Origin: Nitrosovibrio sp. Nv4
Lineage (GTDB): Bacteria; Bdellovibrionota; UBA1018; CAIMNF01
NCBI GenBank assembly: GCA_943327105.2
Contig: CALPVV020000004.1
Coordinates: 1-56,317, forward strand
Direction: 5' to 3'
Length of the DNA: 56,317 bases
Positions 47,686 to 55,249 of the stretch are shown piece by piece; the first letter of the stretch is position 1, and every line of letters starts with the position of its first letter. The notes below the pieces were generated by a model. That model worked only from the letters and a program-made list of their open reading frames with translations. It was not told the origin of the DNA and searched no databases. The translations under genes were made by a program, and so were the position numbers.

Positions 47686-48732
47686 ATGGATCAACAATTC
47701 ATCCAACGAAAAGAAGACCATCTCCAGTATTCCCTGAGCCCGGAATCGCAGACTTCTCTGCATTCCCGCTGGGAGCATTTAGACCTAATTCATGATTCAT
47801 TACCTGACCTTGATTTGGCAGACGTTTCAATTCATTCAGCTTTTCTTGACTATCAAATCGAGACTCCGTTTTTTGTTCCCGGCATGACGGCTGGACATGA
47901 AAACGCAACCTTGATCAATGACCGTATTGCGGGCATGGCCTCTGAGCGGGGTTGGTTGATGGGCGTCGGTTCACAACGACGTGAGCTTGATTCTGAATAT
48001 CAGGACTACGCGCTTCAAAAGATCGCGTCTCGATTTCCAAAATTAAAATTGATTTCAAACCTTGGTTTGTCACAGTTGATCGAATTGCATCAGCAGGGCG
48101 AGTTTGCCAAGTTGCAAGCGCTTGTTGAAAATACTGGTGCTGCGATGATTGCGATTCATTTGAACCCTCTTCAAGAGGCGGTCCAGGCTGAAGGAACACC
48201 GAACTTTCGTGGAGGCTACGAAGCGTTAAAGGCTTGGTGTGATATTTCACCGATACCCGTGATCGTAAAAGAAACGGGTTCGGGCATGAGTGAGGCAACG
48301 CTTCAAAAACTGAAAAATTTGAATTTGTTTGCGGTCGATGTGAGCGGAATGGGTGGAACGCATTGGGGTCGAGTAGAGGGGTTGCGTGCGAAAAAAGAAA
48401 GCGCCTCTTCACGCTACGGAAAAACTTTTGGTAACTGGGGAATTTCAACCGTCGATTCATTGCGTTTTGCTGCAAAGGTATTTGAGGGGACCCAGACAGA
48501 AGTTTGGGCAAGTGGAGGAATGCGCACGGGGCTTGATGCAGCGAAAGCGATCGCACTTGGAGCAAAGCGCGTCGGATTCGCACAGCCGGTACTTGCAGCT
48601 GCACTGACCAGCAAAGTCGCACTTTCCGAGTGGGCATTGCAAACCGAACAGGAATTGAAAATTGCGATGTTTTGTACGAATTCAGCGAATTTGTCGGCGC
48701 TGAATTTGCAGAAACTGAAAGGACATTGGTAG
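47686..48732 (+). CDS. fni: Type 2 isopentenyl diphosphate delta-isomerase
   Basis: This 348-residue FMN-dependent isomerase interconverts IPP and DMAPP. The RKEDHLQYSL opening, FFVPGMTAGHENATLIN, GVGSQRRELD, IPVIVKETGSGMSEA, GMGGTHWGRVEG and the flavin-phosphate site WASGGMRTGLDAAKAIALGA are all typical. It lies six bases before the HMG-CoA reductase gene and diverges from the prenyl synthase. Type 2 isomerases usually accompany the mevalonate pathway. Confidence 0.95.
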   Translation: MDQQFIQRKEDHLQYSLSPESQTSLHSRWEHLDLIHDSLPDLDLADVSIHSAFLDYQIETPFFVPGMTAGHENATLINDRIAGMASERGWLMGVGSQRRELDSEYQDYALQKIASRFPKLKLISNLGLSQLIELHQQGEFAKLQALVENTGAAMIAIHLNPLQEAVQAEGTPNFRGGYEALKAWCDISPIPVIVKETGSGMSEATLQKLKNLNLFAVDVSGMGGTHWGRVEGLRAKKESASSRYGKTFGNWGISTVDSLRFAAKVFEGTQTEVWASGGMRTGLDAAKAIALGAKRVGFAQPVLAAALTSKVALSEWALQTEQELKIAMFCTNSANLSALNLQKLKGHW

Positions 48733-48738
48733 GGCTTC

Positions 48739-50025
48739 ATGGATCGTTTTGAATTTTTACTCGAAAATTTCCACCGTATTTCTTTTGAAGAACGTCAAGG
48801 GCGACTTGCCCAATGGTGTGACCTTGACCCGCAAGAACTTCAGATTTTAAAGGGTGTGAATGCACTTCCGATGGAAACCGCCGAACATTTCATTGAGAAT
48901 GTGGTGGGGATTTTTCCGATGCCCCTAGGTGTCGCTTCTTATTTCAATGTTGATGGCAAGGACTTGCTGATCCCAATGGCAGTTGAAGAGACTTCGATCA
49001 TTGCCGCGGTCAGTTCCACCGCGAAATGGATTCGAAAAATGGGTGGAAGCATAACCACTGAACTTCGAGGCCGTTTGATTATCGGTCAGATTCAAATTCC
49101 ACTGGTTAAAAATCCGGAACAGACACTTTCAATTTTAAATGAGAACAAACTCGAACTCATCTCTGATGCGGATCAATTCATTCCCGGGTTGGTTGCTCGA
49201 GGTGGTGGTGTGCGTGATCTCGAGTTCCGTTTGCTTGATCGTGAAGATGACACCGGTAAAATGCTGGTGATTCACATTCATTGTGACCCGTGTGATGCGA
49301 TGGGTGCCAACCTCATCAATCAGATTTGTGAAGGCCTGAAACCTGAAATTGAGGAACTCACCGGTGAAAAGGTTGGTTTGTGCATTCTCTCAAATCTTAC
49401 TGACGGTAAATTGGTTTATTCTAAAATAGAAATTCCAGGTATTGATGAAGAAACGGCGATGGGTATTCAAGAGGCTGCGCAGTTTGCGAAGACTGACCCA
49501 TACCGAGCATCCACTCACAACAAAGGTGTGATGAACGGAATTGATCCGATCTTGATTGCTACCGGTAATGATTGGCGTGCAGTTGAGGCAGGCGTTCACG
49601 CGTATGCGGCAAAGACAGGCAAGTACCAACCGATCACCGATTGGAAATATGCAAACGGAACGCTGACTGGTGAATTTCTCGCGCCACTTTCGGTCGGAAC
49701 AGTAGGCGGTGTGACCATGCTTCATCCTACGGCAAGATTGTCCCTCAAGATCATGGGGGTTCAGAACTCAGAACAGCTCTCAAGAATTTGTGCTGCGTCC
49801 GGATTGGTTCAGAATCTTGGAGCCTTGAAGGCGTTGGCAACAGTTGGAATCGTAAAGGGTCACATGCGTTTGCATGCTGCAAACTTGGCGATGGCTGCAG
49901 GTGCAAGTGACCGTGAATTGCCGCACTTGAAAGAAGAGCTGGCAAGGGCATTGGCAAAAGAGAAGAGAATCAATCTGACTCGAGCAAAACAGATCCTAGA
50001 ACAGATCCGCGAAAATCTGAATTGA
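48739..50025 (+). CDS. mvaA: Hydroxymethylglutaryl-CoA reductase (class II type)
   Basis: At 428 residues, the protein has the same length and residue numbering as the Pseudomonas mevalonii enzyme: Glu83 in VEETS, Lys267 in HNKG, Asp283 in GNDWRA and His381 in MRLHAANLA. ENVVGIFPMPLGVA and GVMNGID fit the CoA and mevalonate sites. In a biosynthetic setting it reduces HMG-CoA to mevalonate; next to fni that role is more likely than degradation. Cofactor choice (NADH or NADPH) cannot be judged. It is six bases after fni, so they are co-transcribed. Confidence 0.93.
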   Translation: MDRFEFLLENFHRISFEERQGRLAQWCDLDPQELQILKGVNALPMETAEHFIENVVGIFPMPLGVASYFNVDGKDLLIPMAVEETSIIAAVSSTAKWIRKMGGSITTELRGRLIIGQIQIPLVKNPEQTLSILNENKLELISDADQFIPGLVARGGGVRDLEFRLLDREDDTGKMLVIHIHCDPCDAMGANLINQICEGLKPEIEELTGEKVGLCILSNLTDGKLVYSKIEIPGIDEETAMGIQEAAQFAKTDPYRASTHNKGVMNGIDPILIATGNDWRAVEAGVHAYAAKTGKYQPITDWKYANGTLTGEFLAPLSVGTVGGVTMLHPTARLSLKIMGVQNSEQLSRICAASGLVQNLGALKALATVGIVKGHMRLHAANLAMAAGASDRELPHLKEELARALAKEKRINLTRAKQILEQIRENLN

Positions 50026-51803: not shown

Positions 51804-52298
51804 ATGGCAAAGGCCGTTTTTCTAGATCGCGATCATACCTTGAACCCAGATTCCGGTTATATCAGTGATCCAAACAAATTTGATCTTTATCCCTGGGTTC
51901 CGGAAGAGCTGAAGAAACTCAAGCTGAAGGGGTTTTTGTTGATTGTGGTGAGTAATCAGTCGGGCATTGCGCGAGGCTTGATCACTTGGGAGCAGTTGAA
52001 TTTAATTCACCGTAAAATGGATGAAATTCTGGATCAAAAAGTGAATATCAAAATCGACTCGTATCAGGTTTGCCCTCATCATCCTGACGAAGGTTGTGAC
52101 TGCCGGAAACCGAAGCCCAAATTACTGATTGCCGCCGCCCAAGCATTTCAGATCGATCTTTCCGAATCGTTCATGGTTGGTGATCGGGATAGCGACATGA
52201 ATGCCGGAAAAAAAGCGGGAGTGAAGCAGGCCTTATTGGTCACGCCTGATGATGAACTTTCCTTTAGATCTGCCGTTCAGCAAATTCTAAATTCCTGA
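51804..52298 (+). CDS. gmhB: D-glycero-beta-D-manno-heptose 1,7-bisphosphate 7-phosphatase
   Basis: This 164-residue HAD-family enzyme has nucleophile Asp8 and acid Asp10 in VFLDRDHTLN, SNQSGIARG, the zinc-binding CPHHPDEGCDCRKPKP loop and MVGDRDSDMNAGKKAG. It removes the 7-phosphate in ADP-heptose synthesis for LPS inner core. The zinc loop separates it from histidinol phosphatase. The ATG is about 12 bases after a possible -10, so the leader is short. It overlaps recO at the 3' ends by 12 bases. Confidence 0.92.
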   Translation: MAKAVFLDRDHTLNPDSGYISDPNKFDLYPWVPEELKKLKLKGFLLIVVSNQSGIARGLITWEQLNLIHRKMDEILDQKVNIKIDSYQVCPHHPDEGCDCRKPKPKLLIAAAQAFQIDLSESFMVGDRDSDMNAGKKAGVKQALLVTPDDELSFRSAVQQILNS

Positions 52299-53177: not shown

Positions 53178-54341
53178 TTAGTTGGCTGGGGTTGCCTCAA
53201 AGGAGGTAACCACTACTTTGTTAGCAATTCGTGACAGAGCTTCAGTATTAATCAGACCTTGTTTCAGTTTTTCTTGATCCAGTTTCAAGGTCAGTTCAAC
53301 AGAATACTTGGCACTCTTGAGAGAGTTGACGCCGAATGCATTGAATGCAATCGACTGCACCCCGTTACGGCCAACGATCGCCGATGGGCCGAAGTCCTGA
53401 TTGATGATCATTTTGTCTGAAATGACGTGGCGTCTTTGAAGGATCATCAGGCTGCCCTTGAATGGTGCATCAAGTGAGCTAAAAGTGTTGAACTCGAGTC
53501 GGTCAAAATACAGTTTTGATTGGTTGATTTGGGTTTCCAGGAAAGCATTGAGTTTTTGAATAGAAATTGCTTTCACGCGGAACTGATAGTTCACCTGTTT
53601 TTCGGTCGAGCTGATGACTTGCTCAGTGCGATCTTGTTTCACTACTTGGTAAAGGTAAGCATTGGAAGCCTGGTTTAGGGCTCCTAAGGTTACGATTCCA
53701 CCATTCAGGCTGGCGCTTAGCTGATCAGTTGTTTGTCCTGTTTCAGAGAAGTTTTCGAGTTGAATCGAGACTTGGGCAACGGTGTGAAGTTTGATTTGTT
53801 GACCAATAGGTACTTGAACCGGACGAGTACATGCGTAAGAGACTTTTACGATGTTTGGAACCTGCATGCAGGCTTGGCGAGGAATGTCCTGGCAATATTG
53901 ACGAGGAACAGTCTGGCATTCGTAGCGTTGTTGATTGTGGCAAACTTGGTCCATTTGAGTATTGCAGCGTTGAACGGGGTTGCAAACTCGGCGAGGAATG
54001 GTGCGGCACCCAGAGCTGTTGCAGACTTGGTCCATTTGAGTGGTGCATTGATTGTCGGTGTGACAGACATTCCGAGGAATGTTTTGGCAAACTGGATAGT
54101 TACGAAAGTAACATTGTTGTTCAAAGCGAGTATCGCATTGGCGATCGTACTCGGTGTGGCACTCTGTTTTGGTGCCCTGAATTTCATCTCGATAGCAAGT
54201 GTCCGGCACTTGATCAGTTCGATAGATGGTTTCAAACTCTTTTTGATCAAGACTGATTACCTGGTTTGCTTGGTTGAAGATAAAGGTTTCGGCAAGTGCA
54301 GGTGTGGAAAGTCCAAAAAACAACGCGACAAGTAATTTCAT
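53178..54341 (-). CDS. Secreted cysteine-ladder protein with Cx7C repeats, unrecognised
   Basis: I do not know this 387-residue protein. A signal peptide (MKLLVALFFGLSTPALA) leads to residues 49-171, which hold 16 cysteines; ten of the fifteen spacings are exactly eight residues. Two unit types recur: C-x2-[IV]-PR-x2-C (CQNIPRNVC, CRTIPRRVC, CQTVPRQYC, CQDIPRQAC) and C-x-TQMDQVC. Residues 172-387 contain no cysteine and look like beta-rich domains with a final helix. Periplasmic disulfide stapling is expected. The start has GGAG five bases upstream and the gene ends in its own terminator. The opposite strand is stop-poor only because of the repeats. Confidence 0.75.
   Translation of the reverse strand: MKLLVALFFGLSTPALAETFIFNQANQVISLDQKEFETIYRTDQVPDTCYRDEIQGTKTECHTEYDRQCDTRFEQQCYFRNYPVCQNIPRNVCHTDNQCTTQMDQVCNSSGCRTIPRRVCNPVQRCNTQMDQVCHNQQRYECQTVPRQYCQDIPRQACMQVPNIVKVSYACTRPVQVPIGQQIKLHTVAQVSIQLENFSETGQTTDQLSASLNGGIVTLGALNQASNAYLYQVVKQDRTEQVISSTEKQVNYQFRVKAISIQKLNAFLETQINQSKLYFDRLEFNTFSSLDAPFKGSLMILQRRHVISDKMIINQDFGPSAIVGRNGVQSIAFNAFGVNSLKSAKYSVELTLKLDQEKLKQGLINTEALSRIANKVVVTSFEATPAN
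53826..54197 (-). repeat. 24-base coding periodicity (Cx7C units)
   Basis: The cysteine codons of the gene above repeat at a spacing of 24 bases for most of this stretch, corresponding to residues 49-171 of the protein. The units are related but not identical, so this is an old, diverged tandem repeat rather than a recent duplication. Confidence 0.6.
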
Positions 54342-54556: not shown

Positions 54557-55249
54557 ATGTTTTTCAAAGTGCTTTCATTATTATGGCTGGTATACGGAGC
54601 TCCCATCGGTCAAATCATGTCTTCTTACTGGTTTCATCAAAACAACGACCAGCGATTGATTCGCTCTGCTGTATTGGCTGCAAATACCGATCGAGGGTTG
54701 GTAGCGCAGTTACAAGCCAAAGCCCTTTCTAAGAAAATTATTCATATCTCTCAGTGTTTTGAAATTGATCCGATTCTATTTACGGCACTGGTCTGGAGGG
54801 AATCACATTTTCGCCAACAGTCTAAAAGTGAAACCGGAGCGGTCGGCCTCACTCAGCTCACCACTTCAGGTATTCATGAAGTATTAGATCGCTTATCGGC
54901 GGACTCGCGGAGAAAGAAAGATCAACTTCGTCAACAATTGGCGAAATGTTACCCCAGAACCTTGAAAACAATTCCGCGACAGATTGAGCAGGTTGATTTT
55001 TCAAGCTGGAAAAAGAAGATCGCAGGATCTCCTGAATTGGCTTTGATCTTTGGAGCTGTTCTTTTCAAGTCATACCAGTCAGGTGAAGTCAGGATTGCCC
55101 TGGAAAGATACAATGGAGATCCAAAAGTAAAAGTGAAGTTTGCTAATGATGTATTGGCGCTCTCTTATTGGATCAAATCCTCGTTCAAGGTGATTCCTGA
55201 AATTCCCGGAGGCAATTCAAAATTTCTGGCGTCGATCCAAGACCTTTAA
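54557..55249 (+). CDS. Lytic transglycosylase (SLT domain) protein
   Basis: The 230-residue protein has an N-terminal hydrophobic stretch (MFFKVLSLLWLVYGAPIG) and a lysozyme-like SLT domain: FTALVWRESHFRQQSKSETG with catalytic Glu82, and GAVGLTQLT. The C-terminal helices (ALERYNGDPKVK) match the GxxRYNG-type motif. It cleaves peptidoglycan between MurNAc and GlcNAc to give anhydro ends. The start is uncertain: no ribosome-binding site is next to ATG 54557, while a strong GGAGGTGA lies at 54530-54537, 19 bases upstream, without a good start near it. It overlaps the dus gene by 65 bases at the 3' ends. Confidence 0.85.
   Translation: MFFKVLSLLWLVYGAPIGQIMSSYWFHQNNDQRLIRSAVLAANTDRGLVAQLQAKALSKKIIHISQCFEIDPILFTALVWRESHFRQQSKSETGAVGLTQLTTSGIHEVLDRLSADSRRKKDQLRQQLAKCYPRTLKTIPRQIEQVDFSSWKKKIAGSPELALIFGAVLFKSYQSGEVRIALERYNGDPKVKVKFANDVLALSYWIKSSFKVIPEIPGGNSKFLASIQDL

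Follow-up and report, generated by a model that had tools for sequence, protein, structure and literature searches.

The window, by which we mean the whole stretch of 56,317 nucleotides that was analyzed, contains on its minus strand an open reading frame for a cysteine-rich protein, and the plus-strand translation of the same interval is interrupted by stops (Table 1). Secretion had been proposed in the original prediction, and inspection of the N terminus bore this out by revealing a Sec signal peptide, MKLLVALFFGLSTPALA, followed by E. Where the flanks of the orthologous genes could be read, the order was Dus, usually SLT, the ladder gene, RecO, HAD, ABC, HMGR (HMG-CoA reductase), and IPP isomerase, indicating that the neighborhood is conserved in the genus and mostly composed of housekeeping genes. 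In one other family of this phylum, the ladder gene is frequently flanked by ATP-synthase-like genes on one side and riboflavin-like genes on the other, as judged by eye. Gene context provided no functional clue in the genus neighborhoods or in this other family. At positions 47686 to 50025, a gene for an FMN-dependent (type 2-like) IPP isomerase adjoins the HMG-CoA reductase gene; these mevalonate-pathway genes of a Bdellovibrionales-type genome are conserved across the genus. Convergent genes overlap at two places in the window, by 65 bases for SLT and Dus (55185 to 55249) and by 12 bases for the HAD phosphatase and RecO (52287 to 52298).

Table 1. Features of the ladder gene and of its predicted product (positions in the window)
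Feature	Positions	Strand	Evidence
Open reading frame of the 387-aa predicted exported cystine-ladder protein	53178..54341	-	Open frame conserved; same gene order in orthologs
Sec signal peptide, residues 1-17 (MKLLVALFFGLSTPALA, cleavage before E18)	54291..54341	-	By inspection; orthologs alike
Predicted beta-hairpin, residues 26-195	53757..54266	-	AlphaFold2 model, block-mean pLDDT about 76-93 along the strands
Up arm of the ladder, C49-C107, 8 Cys	54021..54197	-	Mirror-symmetric spacing
Predicted hairpin tip, C107-NSSG-C112	54006..54023	-	Midpoint of the palindromic spacing; turn predicted at 109-110; turn motif enriched in central units
Down arm of the ladder, C112-C171, 8 Cys	53829..54008	-	Mirror spacing; pairing inferred
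Duplicated block, copy A, residues 86-107	54021..54086	-	Sequence comparison with copy B
Duplicated block, copy B, residues 113-134	53940..54005	-	13/22 residues and 46/66 bases matching copy A
C-terminal cysteine-free region, residues 196-387	53181..53756	-	Beta-rich in AlphaFold2, mostly pLDDT >80; Ig/FN3-like similarity in Foldseek

The 16 cysteines are located exactly where they had been reported, at residues 49, 61, 69, 77, 85, 93, 99, 107, 112, 120, 126, 134, 142, 150, 158, and 171, and a recount confirmed that 10 of the 15 intervals are of eight residues. The spacings are 12 and 13 at the two ends and 8-8-8-8-6-8-5-8-6-8-8-8-8 between them. The smallest spacing is five and the CxxCH motif is absent, as originally noted, which rejects a multihaem cytochrome. 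The alternation of two unit types had been taken to imply duplication of a two-unit block. A duplication does exist, but the block comprises three spacings (8-6-8) in 22 residues and is local, with one copy on either side of the tip; 9 of the 13 residues shared by the copies are specified by the same codon. Scanning of the window with Tandem Repeats Finder revealed no tandem array at the DNA level.

Orthologs encoded by nine other genomes of the genus, mostly recorded under the name of Bdellovibrionales MAGs, display 42 to 59% identity and an identical cysteine pattern, and relatives in the phylum retain a modified form of it, indicating that the array is real rather than fortuitous. The family profile matched 111 of the 369 genomes of the phylum, including the family that contains a Bacteriovorax sp. 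MAG, and some genomes encode several ladder paralogs. Two paralogs (L024 and L025) have lipobox-like N termini in place of a plain Sec signal peptide. Short members with four to six cysteines also occur (L082, L083, and L089); the ladder is replaced by a Gly/Pro-rich loop in L083 and L089, whose C-terminal region is similar. Two further proteins, which have a longer C-terminal part and perfectly palindromic spacings, 8-6-8-6-8-6-9-6-10-6-9-6-8-6-8-6-8 (L041:2937-4625) and 8-6-10-6-10-6-10-6-8 (L020:1399-2949), perhaps form a second family of laddered hairpins.

No known cysteine-rich family accommodates the protein, which had no match in Pfam, NCBIfam, or the sequences of the PDB. Comparison of 20 family members with Pfam gave no convincing hit, the best E value being 0.017 for one member. 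A weak local match of a Cys- and VP-containing stretch (residues 136 to 159) to the animal domain LDLRAD1_C (PF25241) had an E value of 0.7 and a score of 10 bits, below the cut-off of 29.2, so that membership was rejected. A CASP16 match naming Bdellovibrio was to a different protein. Relatives of the ladder protein were not found in viral contigs, phages, or plasmids, and a Foldseek comparison of the model with viral models returned no match at an E value of 0.001. The C-terminal region resembled FN3 domains in Foldseek (probability 0.98 to 0.99, target TM about 0.4 to 0.5 over about 120 columns, E values of 0.02 to 0.08); this likeness to FN3/Ig-like domains was not accompanied by a Pfam FN3 or Ig sequence match. 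Our literature search found no paper on palindromic cysteine spacing or on the ladder family, which may nevertheless have been described elsewhere.

The main property of the array, absent from the original prediction, is the mirror symmetry of its spacing. For the window protein considered alone, the palindrome had a shuffle P value of 0.007. Among the 32 distinct spacing lists of the family, 10 of 241 mirror pairs were mismatched versus 130.1 ± 5.9 in shuffles, the lowest count being 106 in 20,000 trials, although the relatedness of the sequences implies that these pooled statistics overstate independence. Spacing was palindromic in 38 of 45 non-redundant ladders. The remaining seven, among which L030 is truncated at the end of its contig, each contained at least one mismatched mirror pair. 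The symmetry spans relatives with 8 to 38 cysteines (38 in L074) across the phylum (Bdellovibrionota and kin). The palindromes include spacings as different as 8 (11 times)-6-8-9-8-6-8 (11 times) between ends of 12 and 13 (L023), and 10-9-8-10-9-10-9-9-9-9-9-10-9-10-8-9-10 between ends of 11 and 13 (L015). Pairing of neighboring cysteines does not require a palindrome, whereas a single antiparallel hairpin does. The mirrored spacings therefore point to one antiparallel hairpin with cross-strand disulfides connecting Cys i to Cys N+1-i. For the window protein, the putative pairs would be 49-171, 61-158, 69-150, 77-142, 85-134, 93-126, 99-120, and 107-112.

Several features of the sequences are those of a hairpin. 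The number of cysteines was even in all 44 complete ladders, and a turn motif (N/D/S-G or N/D/S-x-G) was present in 37 of 44 central units versus 24 of 634 other units. In the window protein, the [IV]PR and TQMDQV unit types would lie opposite each other across the arms. Mirrored units were charge-complementary in exact register (z of 4.8, matched by 0 of 2,000 shuffles), whereas registers -1 and +1 showed no excess, a result that kinship among the sequences makes less independent than it appears. Hydrophobic pairs across the arms and the overall P4 test did not reach significance; P4 avoided P4 across the arms in the 8-residue subset only. Cross-strand disulfides prefer non-hydrogen-bonded pairs, and at even offsets from such cysteines the backbone NH is directed away from the partner strand, where proline is tolerated and edge growth is blocked. 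In 8-residue units, proline was at an even offset from cysteine in 110 of 111 cases.

Structure prediction, a check proposed along with the original prediction, gave one long two-strand hairpin. The AlphaFold2 model, obtained with the window protein and ten relatives, contains strands 26-108 and 111-195 connected by a two-residue turn (109-110), with a mean pLDDT of 83.9 and a pTM of only 0.53. Since the cysteine pattern may itself influence AlphaFold2, the model is support for the hairpin rather than proof. The model of a 30-cysteine relative (L040) had a pLDDT of 35, probably because a usable alignment was lacking. The two antiparallel strands and turn predicted for the window protein are those of the cystine-ladder beta-hairpin class, and the cysteines occupy mirrored strand positions, as in that class. 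The hairpin is hydrophilic on either face, with mean Kyte-Doolittle values of -2.2 and -1.2.

Sequence statistics and prediction support the view that the protein is conserved, carries an export signal, has mirror-symmetric cysteine spacing, and forms a hairpin. We consider it probable that this is an exported envelope protein dominated by one long disulfide-laddered antiparallel hairpin, with a stalk or spacer as the leading candidate role. Following Sec export, the cysteines would be oxidized in the periplasm, each cysteine of the rising arm forming a bond with its mirror partner of the falling arm, which would generate 8 rungs in the window protein and 4 to 19 rungs in relatives. The disulfide-forming system is likely a VKOR-DsbA fusion encoded by the genome of the window (G000:C115, L106:87-1220). 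This genome also encodes a second DsbA-like protein, and DsbB was not found in its assembly, which is about 92% complete. The arms would join in the tight turn CNSSGC, and the base would continue into the C-terminal Ig/FN3-like region. The resulting rod should be stiff and hydrophilic, with a length, from the outermost rung to the tip, of about 19 to 20 nm (58 residues per arm at 0.33 nm per residue) and of 9 to 54 nm in relatives. Prolines with an outward NH should prevent strand addition at the edges, and the rod would probably stay single. The disulfide-stapled rod anchored by C-terminal domains envisaged in the original prediction comes close to this evidence, except that a single hairpin, in place of successive two-unit repeats, would make up the rod. 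Its role could plausibly be to keep the tip at a distance from the base, as a length-tuned spacer or stalk within the envelope or at the cell surface.

The main rival of the stalk role is that the hairpin is a subunit of an extracellular filament or matrix, assembled by edge-to-edge or C-terminal association. Two-stranded sheets have open edges, some genomes encode multiple paralogs, and part of the model had a weak structural match to the biofilm matrix protein RbmA in Foldseek. Edge growth is nevertheless disfavored by the prolines that both arms place where the NH points outward, and adjoining pilin, usher, or secretion genes were not recognized, making such assembly unlikely. Much less probable still is a beads-on-a-string rod in which neighboring cysteines close C-x7-C loops generated by duplication of a short block. 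That arrangement would account for the 10 spacings of eight, for the likeness of units of the same arm, as expected from tandem duplication, and for the duplicated 22-residue block. It leaves unpredicted the mirror symmetry, the equal length of the arms, the central turn motif, the parity of the prolines, and the pairing of charges in mirror register, and AlphaFold2 yields a hairpin instead. The best structural matches in the PDB were pore-forming proteins with long hairpins (Foldseek E values of 1e-5 to 1e-3), but TM values of 0.06 to 0.19 and an rmsd above 30 Å reduce this likeness to hairpin shape. The hydrophilic character of both faces argues against membrane insertion, and rungs every eight residues are unlike transmembrane hairpins, so that participation of the hairpin in an oligomeric membrane barrel is most improbable. 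Equally hard to credit is a reservoir of reduced cysteines that binds metal or buffers periplasmic redox stress, as might be expected of an exported protein dense in cysteine, since CxxC and CxxCH motifs are absent, mirror-symmetric spacings of 5 to 13 serve a fold rather than a metal site, and the genome encodes the oxidizing VKOR-DsbA fusion.

The comparison of relatives shows how a laddered hairpin might change in length. Parsimony on a tree built from the C-terminal region, in which several forks are weakly supported, indicated 17 changes in cysteine number among 40 members, and the symmetry was kept despite these changes. The ladder of L076 contains one more unit per arm than that of L075; the ladder has 31 units, and the additional ones, 9 and 23, mirror each other exactly. 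L077 likewise contains one more unit per arm than L078, at units 11 and 18, the exact mirror of the former being 19; units adjoining the inserted ones are nearly identical. One relative of 615 residues, encoded on the minus strand (L081, G289:C4), has, where the tip would be expected, a repetitive Pro-rich insert exceeding 200 residues, and the half-ladders flanking the insert are still mirrored (11-8-6-8 and 8-6-8-13). Mean identity was 0.34 to 0.35 between units of the same arm versus 0.20 between mirror partners. This greater resemblance within arms suggests that an arm grows by duplication of its own units and that the other arm is matched to it, which raises the question of how two distant insertions of the same size become fixed together. 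More tentatively, the family might represent an undescribed class of envelope proteins of predatory-type bacteria, in which single zippered hairpins of up to about 50 nm act as molecular rulers and are lengthened by matched mirrored insertions. Predatory bacteria gain a widespread unnamed family of putative envelope proteins. Cysteine spacing by itself was enough to read out the predicted fold, and testing for a palindrome offers a simple means of finding further laddered hairpins where genomes are unannotated. With the disulfides paired as proposed, the family would also provide a natural, length-programmable stiff rod that would be useful to protein engineers.

Tachyplesin, protegrin, and gomesin are single hairpins of about 18 residues with two nested cross-strand disulfide rungs, and are cationic and membrane active. 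The nested-disulfide hairpin of such antimicrobial peptides (reviewed in PMC13001179) is shared by the window protein, which differs in being a near-neutral (14 positive and 12 negative charges) predicted structural rod. In the cystine ladder of theta-defensins, a cyclic peptide (PMC10096437) of 18 residues (PMC6327110) carries three parallel disulfides, which, as proposed for the window protein, connect an antiparallel pair of strands. These primate peptides have three rungs, whereas the bacterial protein is linear, comprises 387 residues and 16 cysteines that would form 8 rungs (4 to 19 in relatives), and shows no homology to them; a linear open reading frame of this size is not a head-to-tail cyclic peptide of 18 residues, and membership was rejected. 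Three parallel disulfides also form a ladder-like inserted module in the extracellular protein HAP2 of algae (PMC6327110), which, unlike the window ladder, is an EGF-like loop of 37 residues restricted to green algae. Theta-defensin and HAP2 ladders share a principle with the window family, but neither ancestry nor scale. The window family appears to be a cystine-ladder hairpin far larger than known examples and, with disulfides paired as we propose, its longest members would far exceed the three-rung cystine ladders described previously (PMC10096437 and PMC6327110).
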